NCBI RefSeq assembly: GCF_002283365.1
Contig: NZ_MQWD01000001.1
Coordinates: 5,948 to 69,947 of the forward strand
Origin: Rubrivirga marina
GTDB lineage: Bacteria > Bacteroidota > Rhodothermia > Rhodothermales > Rubricoccaceae
Length of the DNA stretch: 64,000 bases
Direction of reading: 5' to 3'
This document shows positions 14,438 to 24,677 of the stretch, piece after piece. Both the position numbers and the translations under genes were made by a program. The stretch's first letter is position 1; each line of letters begins with the position of its first letter. The notes under the pieces were generated by a model. That model did not search any database. It worked only from the letters and a program-made list of their open reading frames with translations, and was not told the DNA's origin.

Positions 14438-15079
14438 ATGCACACACCCGACGACCCCCATCTTTCCTCTCGCACCTCGCACGGCAAGCGAGCCGCCGTC
14501 CGTCGACGCGTTGTCTCGCTGAAGCGACGCCTGAGGGAGAGCCGCAAACGAACCCGCGTCGCATCCGGGACGGCCGTCCTCGCGACGATCGCCGCGCTGG
14601 TTCTCGCTTTCCAGCCCGAGCCGGCGCCGCAGCCCGTCCCCCTCGGTTCGGGGCGTGCCGGCGTGTTCACCGTCTCGGATCGTGGCGAGCGGCCAGATCG
14701 AACGCCAGCCCGTCCCGCCGACCGTCCGACGGAGCCGGATGCGATGCGTGCTGACGCCTCTACGGAAGCTGACGCCTCTATGGAGGAAGGCGAGGCGAGC
14801 TACTACGGCGACGAGTTCGAGGGCCGGCCCACGGCGTCCGGCGAGCCGTTCGCCCAGGCCGCGCTCACGGCGGCCCACCGGACGCTCCCCATCGGCACGC
14901 GCGTTCGGGTGACGAACGTGTCGACCCAGGAGAGCGTCGTCGTCCGCGTTAACGACCGGGGGCCGTTCGCCAAGCGCCGCGTGATCGACCTGTCAAAGGC
15001 AGCGGCCCGCGAGATCGGGATGCTCGAGTCCGGGACGGCCCGCGTCCAGCTCGAGCTAGTGCGCGGGACTCACGTCTAG
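14438..15079 (+). CDS. RlpA-like double-psi beta-barrel protein (second of two)
   Basis: A 213-residue paralogue of the preceding gene. The ATG at 14438 (MHTPDDP) parallels MRTPTPP of the first copy; an earlier in-frame ATG at 14381 adds 19 unrelated residues and is less likely. A long basic N-terminal stretch (KRAAVRRRVVSLKRRLRESR) precedes one membrane helix (AVLATIAALVLAF). The barrel domain (about 130-210) is nearly identical to the first copy: [58 protein letters not shown]. Linker and N-terminus have diverged. The last 24 bases overlap tail-to-tail with argH. Confidence 0.85.
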   Translation: MHTPDDPHLSSRTSHGKRAAVRRRVVSLKRRLRESRKRTRVASGTAVLATIAALVLAFQPEPAPQPVPLGSGRAGVFTVSDRGERPDRTPARPADRPTEPDAMRADASTEADASMEEGEASYYGDEFEGRPTASGEPFAQAALTAAHRTLPIGTRVRVTNVSTQESVVVRVNDRGPFAKRRVIDLSKAAAREIGMLESGTARVQLELVRGTHV

Positions 15080-16426
15080 ATCGGATCCTGTTCCGGCCGC
15101 CTCCGCCAGCCGCTGACGGAGCGCACCGACGTCCACGTTGCCGGGCGTGCCGGACGACGTGTAGGCCGCGAGCGCGTCCGCCTCGGTGGGCACGTCGAGG
15201 CGGTCGAGGTGGGTGCCGACCTCGCGGTAGGCGTCGCGGAACGGCGTCCCGGCCTCGACCCGCTTGAGCGCTTCGGCCGTCGCGAACAGGTCCGGCGACA
15301 GCGCCGCCCGCATCCGGTCGGCCTGCCACTCCACGCCCGGCAGCACGGCGGCGACGGCCGCCACGAGGTCCCGCGTCGCGCCGACGGCCCGCATCAGCGC
15401 CTCCTTCGTGAGTTGGAGGTCGCGGTGGTAGCCGCCCGGCAGGTTGGCCGGGAGCGTCAGGAGAAGGTGGAGCTCGGCCGTGAGCCGGTGCGCCGTCGCG
15501 CGGGCCAGCTCCAGCACGTCCGGATTCCGCTTCTGCGGCATGATCGACGAGCCCGTCGTGTGCTCCACCGGCAGTTTGACGAACCCGAATTCGGATGTCG
15601 CAAACAGGGCCAGGTCGCTCGCGAGCCGGTTCAGCGTGAGACCGAGTTGGACGAGGGCGTGGACGACGGCGCCCTCGGCCTTGCCACGCGACAGCTGGAC
15701 GGCCGCGATCGCCTGCGTGCGCGCGAACCCGAGCCGCTCGGCGACGGCGTCGCGCGGGAGGTCGAGGACCGGCACGCCGTAGCCCGCCGCGCTCCCCCAC
15801 GGCGACGTGTTGGCCCCGTCCGCCGCGGCGCGGAGGCCTTCGGTGTCGTCCGTCAACAGATCCGCGTAACCGGCGGCCCAGACGGCGACGGTCGTGGGCA
15901 TGGCGCGCTGGCCGTGCGTGTAGCCGGGCATCAAGAGGGTCTGACCCGCCTCGGCGTGGTCGAGGAGCGCCCCGCCCACGTCGCGGGCGCCGGCGCCGAT
16001 GCCCGCGAGCGCGTCGCGGAGCCAGAGGCGGAGGGCTGTGAGCACCTGGTCGTTTCGCGACCGGCCGGCGTGGATCTTCTTGCCCGCGTCGCCGAGCCGC
16101 GCCGTCAGCTCCCGCTCGATGACGGTGTGCATGTCCTCGTCCTCGGGCCGCACGACGACGTCGCCCGCCTCCCACGCTGCCCGGATTGCGTCGAGCGCGT
16201 CCGAGACCTCCGCCACCTCGGCCTCGGTCAACACGCCGACCTGCCCGAGCGCCCACGCGTGCGCCCGCGTGCCCTCGAGGTCGTACGGCAAAAGGATCGT
16301 GTCCCACCGCCAGTCCTCGCCGACGGTGAACCGCGTTACCCAGTCCTCGGCGGCCGTGCCTTTGTGCCAGATCGCCTGGCTCGAGGCTTGGGGGTCAGGG
16401 TTCGGGGCGTCGACTGGATCGGGCAT
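15056..16426 (-). CDS. argH: Argininosuccinate lyase
   Basis: A 456-residue cytoplasmic enzyme that cleaves argininosuccinate to arginine and fumarate, the last arginine step. The fumarase/aspartase superfamily signature GSSIMPQKRNPD (with the catalytic Ser loop) is intact, as are HAGRSRNDQV, MPGYTHGQRAMPTT and the early W-x-F-T region. Length is normal. It is the last gene of the minus-strand arginine cluster, 38 bases after argE. The start at 16426 (MPDPVDAPN) gives a short extension; the conserved part begins near residue 17. Confidence 0.96.
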   Translation of the reverse strand: MPDPVDAPNPDPQASSQAIWHKGTAAEDWVTRFTVGEDWRWDTILLPYDLEGTRAHAWALGQVGVLTEAEVAEVSDALDAIRAAWEAGDVVVRPEDEDMHTVIERELTARLGDAGKKIHAGRSRNDQVLTALRLWLRDALAGIGAGARDVGGALLDHAEAGQTLLMPGYTHGQRAMPTTVAVWAAGYADLLTDDTEGLRAAADGANTSPWGSAAGYGVPVLDLPRDAVAERLGFARTQAIAAVQLSRGKAEGAVVHALVQLGLTLNRLASDLALFATSEFGFVKLPVEHTTGSSIMPQKRNPDVLELARATAHRLTAELHLLLTLPANLPGGYHRDLQLTKEALMRAVGATRDLVAAVAAVLPGVEWQADRMRAALSPDLFATAEALKRVEAGTPFRDAYREVGTHLDRLDVPTEADALAAYTSSGTPGNVDVGALRQRLAEAAGTGSDLDVSPAH

Positions 16427-16464: not shown

Positions 16465-17565
16465 TCACGACTCCGCGCTCGTGAAGTACCGCCGCGTGAT
16501 GTCGGCGTAGACCTCGACGGCCCGCTCGAGCTGGTCGATCTCGACGTGCTCGTCGGGCGTGTGCGAGAGCTCGCTGCGGCCGGGGCCGATCTTGACGGCC
16601 GGAACGTCCGACAGGTGGATCCAGTCGGAGGCGGTGGGGCTGCCGAAGGGCTCGGCGTCGAGGCCGAGGCCGGCGAGCGCGGCGACCGTGGCGCGGGCGA
16701 TGGGCGCGTCGGCGGGCGTCGAGCACGGGATGAGGCGGTCGGAGTAGACCTCGACGCGGCTCTCCAGCGCCCCGCGGATGAAGGAGGTCAGCTCGGCGTG
16801 CGTGGCGGCCGGCGTCGAGCGGACGTCGAGCGTGAACCGGCACCGATCCGGGACGACGTTCTTGGCCGTCCCACCCTCGATCAGGGTCGCCGTGAACGTC
16901 GGCTTGCCGAGGAGCGGGTCCGCCGTGTCATAGTCGAGCGCGTCGACCGCGAGGAGGTCGCGGGCGGCGACCGTCAGCGCGTTTTTTCCGAGGTGGGCGC
17001 GGGCGGCGTGCGCCGTCTCGCCGTGGGCCGTCGCGTTGAGGATGAGCAGGCCCTTCTGCGCGAGGCACGGCCGGAGCTCCGTCGGCTCGCCCACGAGCGC
17101 CGCGGTGGGCTCCGGGAGCGCGTCGCCGAACACGCGGGCCCGCATCTTCTCCATCCCGTTGTTCTCGGCGCCCGTCTCCTCGCACTCCGTCAGCGCGACG
17201 ACGAGCCGCCCGCCCGACGGCGGCCGCCAGCCCGACTCGGCCAGTTCGACGAGCGCGGTCAGCATCGCCGCACCGCTGGCCTTCGCGTCGACCGCCCCAC
17301 GGCCGTAGACGGCGCCGTCGACTCTCGTGGGCGAGAACGGCGGGTACGGGTGGCCCTCGCTCGGCGGCACCACGTCGAGATGGGAGCACAGAAGCAGCAC
17401 CTCGTCGCCGTCGCCGAGGCTGGCCCACACGTTCTCGTCGAGCCGCCCCACGTCGAGACCGTCGACCTGGCGAAGCGTCATCTCGACGTAGTCGGCCGCC
17501 GCCTTCTCCTTGAACGAGAGCGACGGGATGCGGACGAGGTCGGCGTGGAGGTCGAGGACGTTCAA
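16465..17565 (-). CDS. argE: N-acylornithine deacylase (M20 family, ArgE/DapE-like)
   Basis: A 366-residue zinc-dependent M20 peptidase-type deacylase. No ATG suits the N-terminus; a TTG at 17565 begins exactly at the conserved NVLDLHADLVRIPSLSFKE, so it is chosen. Metal ligands are visible in LLCSHLDVVP, YGRGAVDAKASG, TECEETGAEN (catalytic Glu pair) and near the end in SELSHTPDEHV. In this cluster it should remove the acetyl or succinyl group from N-acylcitrulline or N-acylornithine to complete the pathway, since the carbamoyltransferase here is the N-acyl type. DapE-like succinyl-diaminopimelate activity is the alternative but the context argues for arginine. Confidence 0.88.
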   Translation of the reverse strand: MNVLDLHADLVRIPSLSFKEKAAADYVEMTLRQVDGLDVGRLDENVWASLGDGDEVLLLCSHLDVVPPSEGHPYPPFSPTRVDGAVYGRGAVDAKASGAAMLTALVELAESGWRPPSGGRLVVALTECEETGAENNGMEKMRARVFGDALPEPTAALVGEPTELRPCLAQKGLLILNATAHGETAHAARAHLGKNALTVAARDLLAVDALDYDTADPLLGKPTFTATLIEGGTAKNVVPDRCRFTLDVRSTPAATHAELTSFIRGALESRVEVYSDRLIPCSTPADAPIARATVAALAGLGLDAEPFGSPTASDWIHLSDVPAVKIGPGRSELSHTPDEHVEIDQLERAVEVYADITRRYFTSAES

Positions 17566-17645
17566 CGGATCGGGTGAGTGAGGGCCGGACGAGGGGTGAT
17601 GGGTCGGGATCGAGTCGGTCCGACTCGGTGTCGAGGCGGGCGGGG

Positions 17646-18452
17646 TCAGGGGACGACGGTGGTGCCGCCGCCGCCGGCGATGTCGGCCGGGGCGCAGACG
17701 CGGACGGCGGGCACGCCCCGCCGGAGCGCGGCGCGCGCGACCTCCAGCTTGGGCCGCATCCCGCCTGCGATCCAGCCCTCCGCCACGCCGGCCTCCACCT
17801 CCGCGGCCGTGAGCCGGTCGAGGCGGCTGTCGGGGTCGTCGGCGTCGCGGCGGACCCCGCCGGCCTCGGTCACGAGGTCGAGGCGGGTGGCCCCGAGCGC
17901 CGCCGCCAGCTCGAAGGCGACCGTGTCGGCGTTGACGTTGTACAGCGCGCCCGCGTCGTCGGCGCAGATCGTAGCGACGACGGGCGTGAATCCGGCGCCG
18001 AGGAGCGTCTCGACGAGCGCCGGGGCGACGCCGTCGACGTCGCCGACGTGCCCGAAGTCGACGGTCTCGCCATCCACGTCGCGCGGCGGCCGGCGGTGGA
18101 CCCGGACGAGCCCGCCGTCGGCCCCGCTCACGCCAACGGCGCGGACGCCGGCCGCGCGCGCCGACGCCACGAGGCGGGCGTTGAGCTCGCCGCGGAGCGT
18201 CCACAGCATCACGTCGAGGTCGAGGTCGCTCGTCACGCGGCGCCCGGCAACGATCCGCGGCTCGTGGCCGAGGCGCCGTGCGAGCGCCGTCGCCTGCGGC
18301 CCGCCGCCGTGGACGAGCACGGCCGGCCCGCCCAGCGCCTGGACACCGGTCCAGACCTCGGCGACGGCCTCGGCATCGGCCAGGATCGCCCCGCCCAGCT
18401 TGACGACGACGGAACGGGAAACTCGGGGCTGAGGACTCTTCACGTCGGCCAT
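17646..18452 (-). CDS. argB: N-acylglutamate kinase
   Basis: A 268-residue amino-acid-kinase-fold enzyme that phosphorylates the side-chain carboxylate of N-acetyl- (or N-succinyl-) glutamate. Signatures: VVVKLGGAILAD, VLVHGGGPQATA, GVSGADGGLVR, TPVVATICADDAGALYNVNADT for acyl-glutamate/nucleotide binding, and WIAGGMRPKLEVA near the end. There is no N-terminal helix of the hexameric, arginine-inhibited type, so feedback inhibition by arginine is less likely, as in other Bacteroidota-like enzymes. It is three bases downstream of argF' and 80 bases upstream of argE. Confidence 0.93.
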   Translation of the reverse strand: MADVKSPQPRVSRSVVVKLGGAILADAEAVAEVWTGVQALGGPAVLVHGGGPQATALARRLGHEPRIVAGRRVTSDLDLDVMLWTLRGELNARLVASARAAGVRAVGVSGADGGLVRVHRRPPRDVDGETVDFGHVGDVDGVAPALVETLLGAGFTPVVATICADDAGALYNVNADTVAFELAAALGATRLDLVTEAGGVRRDADDPDSRLDRLTAAEVEAGVAEGWIAGGMRPKLEVARAALRRGVPAVRVCAPADIAGGGGTTVVP

Positions 18453-18455
18453 TCC

Positions 18456-19478
18456 CTAGTCCCCGGTCCCGAGTCCCTCCAGTCCCCACACCCACTCCAG
18501 AACCGCCTTCTGCGCGTGGAGCCGGTACTCGGCCTGGAGCAGGTGGATCGCCCGCTCGTGGTCCAGCACGTCGCCGTCGACCACGACGCCGCGACGGACG
18601 GGGAGGCAGTGCATGAACGCGGCCCGGTCGGTCCGCGTCATGTCGCCGTTCGAGAGCCGCCAGTCGGCGTGGGACGCGCGCTGCCGCGCTTCCAGCTCCG
18701 GCGCGTCGTAGACCGTGCCGCCCGACCACGCCTTGGCGTAGACCACGCTCGCGCCGGAGAGCGCGTCGGGGCGGTGCGACGACTCCGTCACGGAGCCGCC
18801 GTGCTTGCTGGCCTCCTTCTGCGCGAGGGCGAGCACGTCGGCGTCGAGGCCGAACCCGTCGGGCCGCGCGACGATCACCTCCATCCCGAGCCGGGCCGCC
18901 ATCATCACGGCCGAGTTCGGGACGGCGCGGGGCAGCGGCTTCGGGTGCGGGGCCCAGTGGAGCACGAACTTCTTCCCGCGCGGGTCGCCGACGTGATCGC
19001 AGATCGTCGCCGCGTCGCCGAGTTCCTGGCACGGGTGCCACCGCGCCGACTCGAGGTTGACGACCGGCACCGCCGAGGCGGCCACGGCGGCGCGGAAGGC
19101 GCGGTCCTCGTGGTCGGCCTCGTAGTCGCTCAGCGTCGCGAACGTCCGCACGCCGAGGGCGTCGACGTAGCGGCTCAGGACGCCGAAGGCCTCCTTGACG
19201 TGCTCGGCCGCGTCGCCGTCCATCGTCACGCCGTCGCGCGTCTCCAGGCCCCACGTGCCGGAGCCGGGCGTGAGCGTGACCGGGTGGGCGCCGAGGTGGG
19301 CCGCCGCGAGGTCCATCGACGCCCGCGTCCGAAGCGACGGGTTGAAGAAGACGAGCCCGAGCGCCTTGCCCGCCGCCGACTGTGTCCAGGCGCGGTGCTG
19401 GCGGTGCCAGAGCGCGCGGTCGAGGCACGCCTGCCAGGTCGCGGCGGGAAGGTCGGTCCAGGAGGTGAGGTGGTTCAT
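18456..19478 (-). CDS. argF': N-acylornithine carbamoyltransferase (succinyl type predicted)
   Basis: A 340-residue carbamoyltransferase. Carbamoyl-phosphate motifs FFNPSLRTR and HCLPVRR are present, and the blocks WGLETRDGVTMDGDAAEH and APHPKPLPRAVPNS are those of N-acetyl/N-succinyl-ornithine carbamoyltransferases, not ordinary ornithine carbamoyltransferase. From published mutagenesis known to me, the residue matching Glu92 of the Xanthomonas acetyl enzyme and Pro90 of the Bacteroides fragilis succinyl enzyme sets acyl specificity; here it is Ala91 (GDAAEH), a residue reported to favour succinylornithine. The start is either ATG 19478 (MNHLTSW) or 19505; the former aligns better. It follows argD by 67 bases and precedes argB by three. 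Confidence 0.92.
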   Translation of the reverse strand: MNHLTSWTDLPAATWQACLDRALWHRQHRAWTQSAAGKALGLVFFNPSLRTRASMDLAAAHLGAHPVTLTPGSGTWGLETRDGVTMDGDAAEHVKEAFGVLSRYVDALGVRTFATLSDYEADHEDRAFRAAVAASAVPVVNLESARWHPCQELGDAATICDHVGDPRGKKFVLHWAPHPKPLPRAVPNSAVMMAARLGMEVIVARPDGFGLDADVLALAQKEASKHGGSVTESSHRPDALSGASVVYAKAWSGGTVYDAPELEARQRASHADWRLSNGDMTRTDRAAFMHCLPVRRGVVVDGDVLDHERAIHLLQAEYRLHAQKAVLEWVWGLEGLGTGD

Positions 19479-19545
19479 CGGGGGAGCGGCAGAGGGGGTC
19501 GTCACAGTACGCCCAGGCGGCGCATGCCGCGGGCGACGCAGGGAT

Positions 19546-20712
19546 TTATGCGTTCAAGACGTCCGCGAACCGGCCGAGGAAGTCGTCGACGTCGGCGTCG
19601 GGCGTCGTGAGCGGCGGCATGAGGCGGAGCGTGTCGGCCCGGCCGGAGGTCCCGACGATCACGCCGGCCTCGCGGAGCGCGCCGGCGACGGGCTTCGCCG
19701 GGCGGTCGAGCGACACGCCGATGAGGCAGCCGCGGCCCCGCACCTCCGTGACTCCGTCCACCTCGGCGAGCCCGTCGCCGAGGCGGGCGAAGAGCGCGAC
19801 GGCCCGCGCCATGAGGTCGTCGTCGACGAGCTGCGCGAGCGTCGCCTTGACGGCCGCCATCGCCAGCATCCCGCCGCCGAACGTCGTGCCCTGGTCGCCC
19901 GCCTTGACCGTCGCCGCGATCGCGTCGTTCACGAGCACGGCGCCGACGGGGACGCCCGCGCCGAGGCTCTTCGCTAGGCTCACGAGGTCCGGCGTCACGC
20001 CGACGTGCTCGCCGTAGAGGAACGTGCCGGTCCGACCGACGCCCGTCTGGACCTCGTCGAAGATCAGCACGGTGCCCGTCCGGTCGCAGATCTCGCGGAT
20101 CGCGCGGTAGAACTCGGGCCGGGCCTCGGTGATGCCGGCCATCGACTGCATCGGCTCGAGGATCAGCGCGGCGACGTCCTCGCCGGCCAGCGCATCCTCG
20201 ACGGCGCCCTCCCAGCCGAACGGCACCCACGTCGTCTCGGGCAGCACGTCGCGGTACGGCGCGTGGTACGTGTCGCCGTAGGTCGCGGCCAACGAGCCCA
20301 GCGTCCGCCCGTGGAAGCCCTCGGAGAACGCGACGACGCGGTTCCGCCCTGTGACCGACCGAGCCAGCTTGAGCGCCGTCTCGTTGGCCTCCGTCCCCGA
20401 GTTGCACCAGAACGCGCGGCCCAGGCCGTCCGGCGCGAGGTCCACGAGCGCCTGCGCGGCCTCAGCGCGGACGGGGCTGTAGACGGCGTTGGAGTAGAAC
20501 AGCATCTCGCCGGCCTGCTCCCGGATCGCCTCGACGACGCGCGGCGGACAGTGGCCCAGCAAGGCGACGCAGTGGCCGCCGTAGAAGTCGAGGTACTCGC
20601 GCCCCTCGTGGTCCCACACGTGCGTCCCCTCCCCGCGGACGAGCGCGACGGGCGGCTTGGCGTACGTCGGGAGCGTGACGGCGTCTTCGAGCGCCAGCGG
20701 ATCGAGGACCAT
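19546..20712 (-). CDS. argD: N-acylornithine aminotransferase
   Basis: A 388-residue class-III PLP aminotransferase that converts N-acylglutamate semialdehyde to N-acylornithine. Family features: DFYGGHCVALLGHCPP, FWCNSGTEANETALKLAR, AFSEGFHGRTLGSLAAT, LIFDEVQTGVGRTG and the PLP lysine in LAKSLGAGVPVGAV, then TTFGGGMLAMAA. The ATG at 20712 (MVLDPLALED) is chosen; the open frame extends 42 codons upstream through repeat-containing intergenic DNA. The 163-base gap to argC contains a dispersed repeat. Confidence 0.94.
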   Translation of the reverse strand: MVLDPLALEDAVTLPTYAKPPVALVRGEGTHVWDHEGREYLDFYGGHCVALLGHCPPRVVEAIREQAGEMLFYSNAVYSPVRAEAAQALVDLAPDGLGRAFWCNSGTEANETALKLARSVTGRNRVVAFSEGFHGRTLGSLAATYGDTYHAPYRDVLPETTWVPFGWEGAVEDALAGEDVAALILEPMQSMAGITEARPEFYRAIREICDRTGTVLIFDEVQTGVGRTGTFLYGEHVGVTPDLVSLAKSLGAGVPVGAVLVNDAIAATVKAGDQGTTFGGGMLAMAAVKATLAQLVDDDLMARAVALFARLGDGLAEVDGVTEVRGRGCLIGVSLDRPAKPVAGALREAGVIVGTSGRADTLRLMPPLTTPDADVDDFLGRFADVLNA

Positions 20713-20857
20713 CGGTTGAGGGGGGATTGGGTGGAGGGAGCTTGGAACGGACAGGTCAACCGCTGGCGCCAACTCTCTCCCCTGTCCTCCCGAACGCAGT
20801 GACGGATCTCGCATCCGCTCGCGTCGCGCCCGTTTCAAGCGAAGCGGTCGAGTCCGG

Positions 20858-20886
20858 CGAGATCCTTCGCTCCGCTCAGGATGACA
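20858..20886. repeat. CATCCTGAGCG-type repeat overlapping the argC stop
   Basis: CGAGATCCTTCGCTCCGCTC followed by AGGATGACA, a member of the dispersed family also found at 45416-45544 and 47603-47720. The argC stop codon (20876-20878) lies inside it, so the repeat supplies the last codons' context of argC. Confidence 0.75.
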
Positions 20887-21961
20887 CGGTGGCTGGGGTG
20901 GCGGTCGGCAGGGACGGCGCCTCCGTCGGGGCGGGGACGCCGGGCAGCAGCCCCAGCGCCTCGGGCCAGCCGAGGGCGAGGTTCAGGTTCTGGACGGCCT
21001 GCGAGGCCGCGCCCTTGAGCAGGTTGTCGAGCGCGAACCCGACGACGAGGTGCCCGTCCTTCTCGACCCAGCCGAGGTCGCAGAACGGCGTCCCGGTCGT
21101 GGGCAGCAGCTCCGGCAGTTCGCCCGGCGACAGGCGGACGCACGGACGCCCGCCGTAGGCCGTCTCGAACGCGGCCGTGACCTCGTCGAACGACGCGAGC
21201 GTCGCGACGTGGGCCGTCCCCCAGATCCCGCGCGTCCACGGGCCGCTCACCGGCACGAACTGGACGGTCGCCCCGCCGCCCAGCGTCTCGCGGACCTCCG
21301 CGAGGTGCCGGTGCGCCAGCACCTTGTACGCCCGGACGTTGCCATCACGGCGAGGGAAATGGGTCGTCGGCGAGGGGCGGGCGCCGGAGCCGGAGGCGCC
21401 CGTGAGCGCCGTCACGTGGGCCTCGAACGGCCCCTGCATCCGCGCGAACGGCCAGAGCGCGAGGCTGAGGCCGGTCGCGAAGCAGCCCGGGTTGGCAATC
21501 AGCGCCGCGCCCCGGAGCCGCCGGTGGTTCACCTCGGCGAGCCCGTAGACCGCCGCGCGCATCGCCTCGGGGTCCGGGTGTTCCAGCCCATAGACGGCCT
21601 CGTAGGTTTCGACCGAGCCGAGCCGGTGGTCGGCCGAGAGGTCGACGATCAGCCCGTCGAAGCCTGACCGGCGGAGCGCTTGGACGGCCGCGGCGCCCTG
21701 GCCGTGCTCGGCGCAGACGAACGCGACGTCGAACGCGGGCCCGCCCGCCTCGGCGTCGAGGTCGGCGGGGTCGGTGTAGGCGAGGTCGGTCTGGCCGCGG
21801 AGCTGCGGGTGCGTCGTGTGGACCGGCTGGCCGGCCTGGCTGCGGCTGGTGACGGCGACCGGCTCGACGAGCGGGTGGTTCAGAAGAAGCGCCAGCAGTT
21901 CGCCGCCGGCGTAGCCGGCGCCGTGGAGGACCGCGGCGCGGATCGGGGTCGGGGTGCTCAT
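20876..21961 (-). CDS. argC: N-acyl-gamma-glutamyl-phosphate reductase
   Basis: A 361-residue NADP-dependent reductase. The N-terminus has the dinucleotide motif LHGAGYAGGELLALLLNHP; the catalytic cysteine is in IANPGCFATGLSLAL; downstream GASGSGARPS, HRHLAEV and PVSGPWTRGIW match the type-1 ArgC fold. The C-terminal tail past residue 335 is a Pro/Ala/Thr-rich extension that runs into a dispersed repeat. Its ATG overlaps the stop of the upstream P-loop gene by four bases (ATGA), so the two are translationally coupled. Confidence 0.94.
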   Translation of the reverse strand: MSTPTPIRAAVLHGAGYAGGELLALLLNHPLVEPVAVTSRSQAGQPVHTTHPQLRGQTDLAYTDPADLDAEAGGPAFDVAFVCAEHGQGAAAVQALRRSGFDGLIVDLSADHRLGSVETYEAVYGLEHPDPEAMRAAVYGLAEVNHRRLRGAALIANPGCFATGLSLALWPFARMQGPFEAHVTALTGASGSGARPSPTTHFPRRDGNVRAYKVLAHRHLAEVRETLGGGATVQFVPVSGPWTRGIWGTAHVATLASFDEVTAAFETAYGGRPCVRLSPGELPELLPTTGTPFCDLGWVEKDGHLVVGFALDNLLKGAASQAVQNLNLALGWPEALGLLPGVPAPTEAPSLPTATPATVSS

Positions 21962-23097
21962 GACGAGGTCGGGATCACGCGGCGCGGGCCGTTGAACGAG
22001 AGCTTCGGCCCGCCGCCCGCCGCCCACGCCTTCCGCTCGGCGACGTCCTCGGCCACGAGGTCCGCGAGGGCGCCGGCCTCGGACCGCGCGTTGACGGCCG
22101 GGATGCCGAGCGACGTCTGGATGTAGCGCTTGCCCACGTCCGTGTCGGTCGCCGGCCCCACGACGACGCCGATCTCGGCGCGGTACCGCGTCCGGAATAG
22201 CTGATCGCAGGCCCACGCGCCCGCGAGGTCGGCCGCGGCGAGGACGTGCGTGGCCGTGAGCCGCTGGAGCTCCATGTCCTCGAGGATCTGGTCGACGCCG
22301 TACGGCCCGATCACGCCGTCGCCGAGCTCGAGGACGAGCGCGTCGGGCGGCGTGCCGTCGTCCGCCGTCGCGATCCGGTTGAGGTGGGCGATGATGCCCT
22401 TGGCGATCGGCACCATGTCGCGGCCGGTCGTGGCGACGGCGCCGGCCTGGAGGAAGCTGGCCGAGGCCACGGCCCCCTGCGCCACCATCGCGCGGACGTC
22501 GCGCTGGAGCGCCGCGCCCGTCAGCTTGGCCGCCGCCACGCGGAGCCCGCGCCCGGTCAGCTCGCCGACGAGCGCGGCGGCGGCGAACGTCTTGCCCGTG
22601 TTCATGGCCGTCCCCGACACCATCACGAGGGGGGCCGACTCGGTGAGGACCTCGACGGGGTCGACGGCCGTGTCCTGGATCCGCGCGTGCCGCGGCGGCT
22701 CGCCGGTGAGGACGGCGCCCAGCACCTCCACCCGCAGCGCCGGCCCGAGGTCGGGGTGCTCGGCCGCCACGCGCCCCAGAATGCCGCCCATGTTCTGGAC
22801 GTGGAGCACGTCGCCCGGCGCGATGTGGCGCGGGATCCGCCCCGAGTACCCTTTCAATGCCTGCCGCTCGCCGAGCGCGCCGACGAGCGTCTGCCCTTTC
22901 GCGATGGTCCGGAAGACCCCGTCGGCGCCTTCGAGCTGGTTGTAGACGTCCTTGTCGTCGAGCGCGCGGACGGCGAGGCAGTACCCCTCCTCCGCCACGA
23001 CGTAGGGCGAGACGCGGACCTCGTGGTCCAGCCGGCACGGCCCCGTGCTGCTGGCGACGTGGTCGACGGTGAGCGTCGTGATGGATCCGGTGGGCAT
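21958..23097 (-). CDS. Unassigned P-loop protein in the arginine operon (DUF1611/BioD-like); candidate N-acylglutamate synthase
   Basis: A 379-residue cytoplasmic protein. Residues 1-150 are a beta-rich domain I do not recognise. From about 155 it is a P-loop NTPase fold of the dethiobiotin-synthetase/DUF1611 kind: VMVSGTAMNTGKTFAAAAL (Walker A, GTAMNTGKT), AAAKLTGAALQRDV, DALVLELGDGVIGPYG as the Walker B-like strand, and GVVVGPATDTDVGK. It lies between argG (28 bases upstream) and argC (4-base overlap), the position in which a synthase would complete the pathway; no argA or argJ is present. DUF1611 proteins of the DgcN type have been described as N-acetyltransferases acting on glutamate, which makes an acyltransferase role possible. 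Function is inference only. Confidence 0.7.
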   Translation of the reverse strand: MPTGSITTLTVDHVASSTGPCRLDHEVRVSPYVVAEEGYCLAVRALDDKDVYNQLEGADGVFRTIAKGQTLVGALGERQALKGYSGRIPRHIAPGDVLHVQNMGGILGRVAAEHPDLGPALRVEVLGAVLTGEPPRHARIQDTAVDPVEVLTESAPLVMVSGTAMNTGKTFAAAALVGELTGRGLRVAAAKLTGAALQRDVRAMVAQGAVASASFLQAGAVATTGRDMVPIAKGIIAHLNRIATADDGTPPDALVLELGDGVIGPYGVDQILEDMELQRLTATHVLAAADLAGAWACDQLFRTRYRAEIGVVVGPATDTDVGKRYIQTSLGIPAVNARSEAGALADLVAEDVAERKAWAAGGGPKLSFNGPRRVIPTSS

Positions 23098-23125: not shown

Positions 23126-24343
23126 TCAGGTGCCAGCGCGGGCGGCCAGCCGGGCCTGGAGCCCGTAGATCTGGGCGAAGCCCTCGGCGTCGCGGCCGGA
23201 CCACAGCGCGTTGTCCTCGCCGTAGCGGGCCACGCCCGCGTCGAACAGCGAGTGGAGCGACGTGGCTCCCTGGACGTGGATTGCACCCTTGAACCACTCG
23301 ACGTGGACGTCGCCCGTCACGCGCCGCTGCGTGCTGTCGAGGAACGCCTCGAGGTCGCGGCAGATCGGGTCGAAGAAGAGGCCCTCGTGGACGAGCCGGC
23401 CGTAGAGATCGCCGAGACCGGCCTTCTGGACCAGCTGGAGCTGCGTGAGGACGAGCTTCTCCAACTCGCGGTGCGCCGCGATGAGCGTGAGCGCGCCCGG
23501 CGCCTCGAACGCGATCCGCCCCTTGATCCCGAGGATCGTGTCGCCGACGTGGATGCCCCGCCCGACGCCGTGCTCCGCGCCCTCGCGGTTGAGCGTCTCG
23601 ACGAGCGCCACCGGGTCGAGCGATTCGCCGTCGATCGCCACCGGCACGCCCTGCTCGAAACGGATCGTGAGCTGGCGGCCGTCGTCGGGCGCGTCCTTGG
23701 GCGAGATCGTGTCAGGCCACGCCGCCTCGGGGAGGACGCCGTCGGTGTCGTGCGTCTCCTTCCCGCCGATCGTCGTGCCCCACAGGCCGCGGTTGACCGA
23801 GTACTCGGTCGTCTTGGCCTCGACGGGGAAGCCGCGCTCGCGGAGGTAGTCGGTCGAGGCCTCGCGAGAGAGCGAGAGGCTCCGGATCGGCGTCAGGATC
23901 TCCAATGCACCCTCGTCCCCTCGATCCGCCAGCAGGCGGAGGGCCGTGTCGAAGCGGATCTGGTCGTTGCCGGCGCCGGTCGAGCCGTGGGCCACGGCCG
24001 TCGCGCCGAGCGCGCGGGCCGCGTCGGCCAGGGCCTCGGCCTGCACGACGCGCTCCGGGCCCACGCACAGCGGGTACACGCCGCCGCGCAGCACGTTGCC
24101 CTTGACGAGGTACTGGAGCACGCGGTCCCACAGGTCGGCGCGGGCGTCGACGAGGCGGTGGCCGGCGGCGCCGAGGTCGGCGGAGCGGGCGGCGATCTGC
24201 CCTTTCTCCTCGGCGGTGAACCCGCCGGTGTCGACGGTGACGGTCATGACCTCGCGTCCGGTCTCCTCCTTGAGGTAGGGGACGCAGAACGACGTGTCGA
24301 GGCCGCCGGAAAAGGCGAGGGCGATGGGCGAGGTCTCGGGCAT
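23126..24343 (-). CDS. argG: Argininosuccinate synthase
   Basis: A 405-residue enzyme that joins citrulline and aspartate using ATP. The PP-loop ATP-pyrophosphatase motif LAFSGGLDTSF opens the protein; AHGSTGAGNDQIRFD and EYSVNRGLWGTTIGG are the standard substrate-binding blocks. It is the first structural gene of the arginine operon. Its ATG lies only 9 bases after the U-tract of an intrinsic terminator, which in turn follows an arginine-rich leader peptide, so expression is probably set by attenuation rather than by an ArgR repressor. Confidence 0.96.
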   Translation of the reverse strand: MPETSPIALAFSGGLDTSFCVPYLKEETGREVMTVTVDTGGFTAEEKGQIAARSADLGAAGHRLVDARADLWDRVLQYLVKGNVLRGGVYPLCVGPERVVQAEALADAARALGATAVAHGSTGAGNDQIRFDTALRLLADRGDEGALEILTPIRSLSLSREASTDYLRERGFPVEAKTTEYSVNRGLWGTTIGGKETHDTDGVLPEAAWPDTISPKDAPDDGRQLTIRFEQGVPVAIDGESLDPVALVETLNREGAEHGVGRGIHVGDTILGIKGRIAFEAPGALTLIAAHRELEKLVLTQLQLVQKAGLGDLYGRLVHEGLFFDPICRDLEAFLDSTQRRVTGDVHVEWFKGAIHVQGATSLHSLFDAGVARYGEDNALWSGRDAEGFAQIYGLQARLAARAGT

Positions 24344-24352
24344 GGCGGGTAC

Positions 24353-24384
24353 AAAAAACGCCGGCTCCTGGGGAGAGCCGGCGT
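24353..24384 (-). terminator. Attenuator terminator of the arginine operon
   Basis: On the minus strand a perfect 10-bp stem ACGCCGGCTC/GAGCCGGCGT with a 7-base loop, followed by TTTTTT, ends 9 bases before the argG start codon. No other gene upstream on this strand needs it. The sequence CCCGAC that abuts its 5' arm can instead pair with GTCGGG inside the leader-peptide reading frame. Confidence 0.88.
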
Positions 24385-24427
24385 CGGGGGATCGGATCCG
24401 CTGGGGTGATCGTGCGGTGCCGTCCGT

Positions 24428-24499
24428 CTAGGCGTCGTCTCCCGACCCGGGCTGAGCCGGTCGGCGTCGGGGACGTCGGGGGAAGGGACGGGCGGTCAT
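24428..24499 (-). CDS. argL: Arginine-rich leader peptide of the arginine operon
   Basis: A 23-codon frame with ATG at 24499 and TAG at 24428, starting MTARPFPRRPRRRPAQ: six of residues 4-13 are arginine, including the run CGA CGC CGA. It begins 23 bases after the -10 hexamer and precedes an intrinsic terminator. CCGACC (Arg13-Pro14 region) can pair with GGTCGG (codons 18-19), and GTCGGG can pair with CCCGAC next to the terminator, giving the mutually exclusive foldings of classical attenuation: ribosome stalling at Arg codons would free the antiterminator. Transcription and translation are not proved; the symbol is proposed here. Confidence 0.75.
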   Translation of the reverse strand: MTARPFPRRPRRRPAQPGSGDDA

Positions 24500-24521
24500 C
24501 GCGGGGCGGATCGGAACCGAC

Positions 24522-24551
24522 AGGATAGGCGCGACGCGTCGGATTCGTCAA
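24522..24551 (-). promoter_or_regulatory. Arginine operon promoter
   Basis: TTGACG (24546-24551) and TATCCT (24522-24527) on the minus strand, spacer 18. A degenerate GGAAGCGCTACC element lies about 15 bases further upstream. Predicted transcripts begin just before the leader peptide. Confidence 0.7.
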
Positions 24552-24677
24552 CGCAGGCGCGGTCCGGTAGCGCTTCCGTCCGTCAGAAACGCACGGTTGA
24601 CCTCGCGGAGTCCCCGAATGCCCTTGCCCTGTCCGCCTCCGGCCCCCCTTCTTTGGGTCCGCCTCCGTCCCCAGACG

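Follow-up and report, generated by a model that had tools for sequence, protein, structure and literature searches.

A probable arginine-specific ribosome-mediated transcription attenuator before the arginine operon of Rubrivirga marina and its relatives

Background

Ribosome-mediated transcription attenuators are classically known from the trp, his, leu, thr and phe operons, and in textbook accounts leader-peptide attenuation belongs to His, Trp, Leu, Ilv, Thr and Phe, with arginine being assigned to ArgR. Repression by ArgR/AhrC likewise controls arginine biosynthesis, but it works by means of a DNA-binding repressor. The classical attenuators share an architecture in which a leader ORF bearing codons of the regulated amino acid is followed by an antiterminator and a U-tract terminator placed before the first gene. 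Attenuators of trp, leu, ilv and cys genes are described in Actinobacteria (PMC1262725). According to a 2010 survey, Proteobacteria and Actinobacteria were the only groups with demonstrated leader-peptide systems, bar the survey's own Firmicutes case (PMC2965389). Short leader peptides also occur in arginine and ornithine metabolism: PMC8429421 presents SpeFL as an ornithine sensor alongside a fungal arginine attenuator peptide. The Pseudomonas carAB leader is likewise a leader peptide at an arginine/pyrimidine gene and differs in that it acts in pyrimidine attenuation, together with transcriptional control by arginine (PMC4997734). Our literature search found no published case of a bacterial arginine operon attenuated through Arg codons; the wide survey of Lopatovskaya et al. 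(2010), cited in PMC4833913, could contain one.

Here we examine a 64,000-nucleotide stretch of the Rubrivirga marina genome (henceforth the window), in which an arginine operon is preceded by a locus with the same architecture as the classical attenuators. It differs from these in its apparent specificity for arginine, in the placement of the leader AUG 6-11 nt from the -10 box in many relatives, and in its occurrence in a lineage mostly without ArgR.

The leader locus and the operon

All elements of the locus lie on the minus strand. A promoter with a -35 box TTGACG (24546..24551) and a -10 box TATCCT (24522..24527; the identical hexamer recurs in the related loci L002-L004), separated by an 18-bp spacer, precedes a leader ORF of 23 codons, MTARPFPRRPRRRPAQPGSGDDA (24428..24499, from the ATG at 24499 to the TAG at 24428). 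Arginine is encoded at codons 4, 8, 9, 11, 12 and 13, and the cluster at codons 8-13 (CGA CGT CCC CGA CGC CGA; 24461..24478), in which CGA CGC CGA forms codons 11-13, is the proposed stall site. Region 1, CCGACC (24459..24464), can pair with GGTCGG (24447-24442), a 1:2 pairing with modest support. The latter lies in region 2, GGTCGGGAGA (24438..24447), the predicted 5' part of the antiterminator, which begins about 13-16 nt past the last Arg codon. Region 3, CCCGACGCCGGCTCTCCC (24371..24388), spans the terminator's 5' arm and loop, and its CCCGAC and TCTCCC segments can pair with region 2. The predicted intrinsic terminator hairpin (24357..24385; 12 pairs, 5-nt loop, -22.3 kcal/mol) runs into a U6 tract (24353..24358), which is followed by nine bases and then the argG ATG at 24343. 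An earlier note, which gave no strand, had described this promoter, a 23-codon leader with six Arg codons in ten including CGA CGC CGA, the pairings CCGACC/GGTCGG and GTCGGG/CCCGAC, and a U-tract terminator ending 9 bases before argG; each of these is found in the sequence. An Rfam scan of the window at gathering thresholds returned two tRNAs only, with no T-box match and no leader family, and such scans of 20 relatives likewise matched no leader family. A search against a plasmid collection gave no near match.

The leader is followed by an eight-gene arginine operon, likewise on the minus strand, with argG (argininosuccinate synthase, 23126..24343) as its first gene, which matches TIGR00032 over the cut-off as well as PF00764 and PF20979. 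Next comes a gene of uncertain start codon (21958..23038), with no Pfam or NCBIfam match and, by eye, a P-loop-like GTAMNTGKT motif. It is followed by argC (N-acetyl-gamma-glutamyl-phosphate reductase, 20876..22000, TIGR01850 over cut-off; the start is uncertain and probably nearer 21960) and an argD-like acetylornithine aminotransferase (19546..20838; PF00202 and, under their cut-offs, the top NCBIfam hits PRK03244 and TIGR00707). The remaining genes are argF' (N-acetylornithine carbamoyltransferase, 18456..19505, NF003384 over cut-off), argB (acetylglutamate kinase, 17646..18452, TIGR00761 over cut-off), an argE/dapE-like M20 deacylase (16465..17577, NCBIfam matches below cut-offs) and argH (argininosuccinate lyase, 15056..16426, TIGR00838 over cut-off).

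Conservation of the Arg-rich leader in the class

We identified argG in 51/60 relatives and in 164/195 genomes of the class, and surveyed the regions upstream of 114 class argG loci carrying 20 family labels. Curation, performed after viewing the best Arg-rich ORF of each locus and with some starts set by hand, yielded 74 Arg-rich leaders in 18 families, every one with a U-tract hairpin downstream; two further curated leaders from f15 (L074 and L077) are doubtful and stand outside this count. A separate folding scan recovered a U-tract hairpin in 76/76 curated loci, and it starts 18-48 nt past the leader stop in 75 of them, the exception being L074 with 127 nt. A blind detector, which required an ORF with four or more Arg codons among ten, a hairpin with U-tract 10-60 nt past its stop and no more than 130 nt between hairpin and argG, was positive in 66/114 class regions as against 3/276 dinucleotide-shuffled upstream regions. 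All six loci of the window's family were called, whereas the detector misses f14 because its Arg run is looser. Its three calls among 80 loci of a wider argG set (L179, L195 and L218) match members of the class (G149, G197 and G108).

The earlier note had proposed a comparison of related argG upstream regions, and in these both the hairpin and the Arg-rich ORF are kept while the rest of the peptide varies. All 6 members of the window's family that were examined possess Arg-rich homologues, and the AT-richer members of the class (f19-f21) retain their Arg runs. By eye, peptides of different families are dissimilar outside the Arg cluster, with Arg alone conserved, a divergence that fits codon sensing.

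The 40 loci outside the set of 74 are concentrated in two families, f15 (13 loci) and f18 (22 loci), the others being L036 and L058 (f5), L051 and L052 (f2) and L108 (f17, with a distant argG). In f15, 12/13 loci lack a blind call, and a search further upstream for a displaced leader revealed none that was convincing. The two g26 genomes, L051, L052 and L108 are without the leader as well. Since neither a leader nor an ArgR match was found in most f15 genomes, in the g26 pair or in the genomes of L051 and L108, the leader is dispensable.

Alternative pairing and stall spacing

Duplexes between the leader and the terminator 5' arm plus loop were compared with those of dinucleotide-shuffled leaders in 53 representatives, hand-picked from the 76 so as to thin near-identical sequences and including none from f15. 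The mean z was -1.95, with 31/53 below -1.65, and family means were negative in 18/18 families (Wilcoxon p = 7.6e-6). When the duplex was restricted to the part downstream of the Arg cluster, 17/18 family means were still below the shuffles, and the cognate leader has a median rank of 0.15 among the leaders of other families. Eleven perfect pairs are seen by eye in L009 and again in L022. Both strands of the pairing vary within the window's family, which has GGGAGA/UCUCCC in L001, GGACGGGA/UCCUGUCC in L005 and GAACGGG/CCCGUUC in L006. Thus, a mutually exclusive antiterminator pairing is conserved across families with changing sequence. In the window taken alone the antiterminator pairing is not above shuffles (z = +0.3 and +0.6), and the best-conserved antiterminator of its family is GGGAGA/UCUCCC and its equivalents, not only the GUCGGG/CCCGAC pairing. 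The protector pairing 1:2 is weaker, with a mean z of -0.96, 15/53 below -1.65 and negative means in 16/18 families (p = 0.0007).

The footprint of a ribosome whose A site is on the last Arg codon extends about 10-20 nt downstream. The median distance from that codon to the start of region 2 is 15 nt (quartiles 13-18; n=53), and in 40/53 representatives it lies within 10-20 nt, as against a mean of 20% and a maximum of 34% in 60 shuffled sets; by family median, 12/18 families fall within this interval. This spacing about matches the expected end of a ribosome stalled on the Arg codons. CGA accounts for 209/560 leader Arg codons (37%) versus 119/1512 (8%) in argG stretches of the same loci; it is absent from the leaders of f17, f20 and f21 and is hence not required. 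The leader frame holds 560 Arg codons versus 227 and 243 in the other frames, a comparison biased because leaders were chosen partly for their Arg content. The codon and frame figures, like those for promoters below, include the doubtful leaders L074 and L077.

Promoters, a palindrome and the absence of ArgR

A promoter candidate (score at least 8) was detected in 62/76 loci, and in 42/62 a gap of 6-11 nt separates the end of its -10 box from the leader AUG. As transcription usually starts 6-8 nt past the -10 box, the 5' end of the RNA would fall on the AUG or within a few bases of it, which suggests a leaderless leader mRNA in many relatives. The window's family differs, with the -10 box 22-26 nt before the leader start.

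The palindrome GGAAGCGCTACC (24566..24577) lies 14 bp upstream of the -35 box in the window, with no mismatch. Allowing two mismatches to GGAAGCGCTTCC, it is present in 6/6 f1, 6/6 f14 and 6/11 f13 loci, sitting inside the leader end in f14, and with one mismatch allowed the window holds 9 matches versus 0.8 expected. At the same two-mismatch limit it is absent from 12/19 family labels, in all of which except f15 the Arg leader is kept. The palindrome, which we take to resemble operators of LacI/CcpA-type regulators, is a possible operator and might provide a second regulatory input.

No match to ArgR (PF01316) was found in the genome of R. marina itself, given as 97% complete, and only 2/195 class genomes have one, G019 and G043. 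The credible match is that of G043, where argR is the gene immediately ahead of an argG that has no Arg leader. G019 (L032-L034) has five equal-scoring PF01316-like matches, which are probably helix-turn-helix domains of a mobile element.

Proposed mechanism and alternative explanations

Together with the ORF and hairpin, the family-wide alternative pairing, the spacing and the absence of ArgR, all of them read directly from the genomes, argue for the locus being an arginine-specific attenuator of transcription that works through the ribosome, a reading to which we assign a probability of roughly 0.87. In this respect the central proposal of the earlier note is upheld by the relatives, the pairing, the spacing and the lack of ArgR, with the amendments that the antiterminator is not only GTCGGG/CCCGAC and that some lineages are without the leader. 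We infer that the leader is translated, that ribosomes stall on it in response to Arg-tRNA charging and that read-through follows in vivo. RNA polymerase would start just upstream of the leader ORF with a ribosome behind it. With Arg-tRNA charged, translation would proceed past the Arg codons and region 2 would be occupied or paired with region 1; the U-tract hairpin (3:4) would form and transcription would end before argG. When arginine is scarce, the ribosome would stall on the Arg cluster, leaving region 2, which starts just beyond its footprint, free to pair with the terminator 5' arm and loop (2:3), so that the polymerase would read into the arg operon.

An Arg-rich leader in front of an arginine operon could instead act by nascent-peptide arrest, in which the peptide, while in the exit tunnel, would sense free arginine or ornithine and stall the ribosome, as do SpeFL, TnaC and the fungal arginine attenuator peptide; two of these, SpeFL and the fungal peptide, provide precedents (PMC8429421). 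These two are likewise short leader peptides of arginine or ornithine metabolism, but they sense their ligand through the nascent chain (PMC8429421), whereas conservation between families of the present leaders is confined to the Arg codons. Little is shared by the peptides outside the Arg run, and in most class leaders the Arg cluster lies many codons before the stop; further, a stall before region 2 at high ligand would be expected to turn the operon on, the wrong direction for a biosynthetic pathway. Hence, we regard arrest as very unlikely.

It is even less probable that the hairpin serves another input, with the Arg run being incidental. Such an input might be a repressor at GGAAGCGCTWCC, for which the regular presence of the palindrome in f1 and f14, its occurrence in about half of f13 and its excess over chance in the window could speak, or a translation-rate signal from slow CGA codons, in line with the enrichment of CGA in leaders; the palindrome is, however, missing from most family labels that keep the Arg leader, and f17, f20 and f21 hold Arg runs without any CGA. 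Least probable of all, to the point of being nearly negligible, is that GC-rich CGACG repeats serving an RNA structure or a binding protein yield Arg codons by accident. The f1 repeats do resemble the terminator arm, Arg-rich frames are frequent in GC-rich DNA and a few shuffled regions (the 3/276 above) have all the features scored by the detector; against this, Arg runs persist in the AT-richer f19-f21, in-frame Arg codons exceed those of the other frames (with the selection bias given above), and the start codon is placed 6-11 nt after the -10 box in 42/62 loci.

A hairpin before carA

Of 20 loci sought, carA could be placed in 13. In 12 of these (L120, L121, L127, L129-L132 and L134-L138) a U-tract hairpin like GACCTTCCC...GGGAAGGTTTTTTT is seen by eye shortly before the gene, and none is seen in L133. 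Most of these hairpins have no adjacent Arg-rich ORF; in L129 and L130, which belong to one genus, an ORF in which five of ten codons are Arg ends just before the hairpin. The carA hairpin is perhaps a second attenuator, responding to pyrimidines or arginine.

Arg-rich ORFs in f18 and the wider Bacteroidota

In f18, argG is the second gene after one coding for a GNAT protein, and Arg-rich ORFs such as MQKSLAHRIERPTTRRIPRRR are found upstream of the latter. In the f18 leaders L260, L261, L263-L265 and L268-L270 the Arg run is at or near the stop codon, and, by eye, hairpins of varying sequence with no clear U-tract follow. Similar ORFs, again ahead of hairpins in which no U-tract is obvious, are present in other Bacteroidota, among them Urechidicola croceus (L232) and Spongiivirga citrea (L256). 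Directly upstream of argG the blind detector was positive in 0/40 phylum loci, a misleading negative since argG is second there, after GNAT, and one that was reversed by looking upstream of GNAT. For the count upstream of GNAT, 33 phylum loci out of 40 were used and seven were dropped as no GNAT motif was found in them; in 17 of the 33, four or more Arg codons fall within ten in an ORF upstream of the gene, versus 3.1 expected from shuffles, and none of the 33 genomes is among those with an ArgR match. Rfam matches to Flavo-1 (L249, 162-244) and whalefall-1 (L260, 691-746) lie away from the arginine leader.

By eye, a C-terminal stretch which we take to be ArgR-like is seen just upstream of GNAT in L223, L225, L229 and L233-L235, among others. 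Flavobacterium loci have no Arg-rich ORF by the same test and no ArgR was seen in them either, so that any exchange of leader and ArgR is incomplete. These observations raise the possibility, to which we give even odds, that in much of Bacteroidota arginine synthesis is under an ancient Arg-codon leader instead of ArgR, the two replacing one another. The Rhodothermia-like form would be an often leaderless ORF with a U-tract attenuator, whereas f18 and Bacteroidia would have an Arg run near the stop upstream of GNAT-argG and a hairpin in which no U-tract is obvious; their read-out would hence be a different one, as yet undescribed. This phylum-wide reading is a strong lead.

Conclusions

The locus probably represents an arginine attenuator whose conservation extends across a class, for which confidence in this reading is high, and probably across a phylum, and it offers an explanation of how genomes free of ArgR could control the arginine pathway. 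Its versions in different lineages, which differ in codon choice, ribosome spacing, leaderless initiation and terminator type but would share one function, constitute a natural series.
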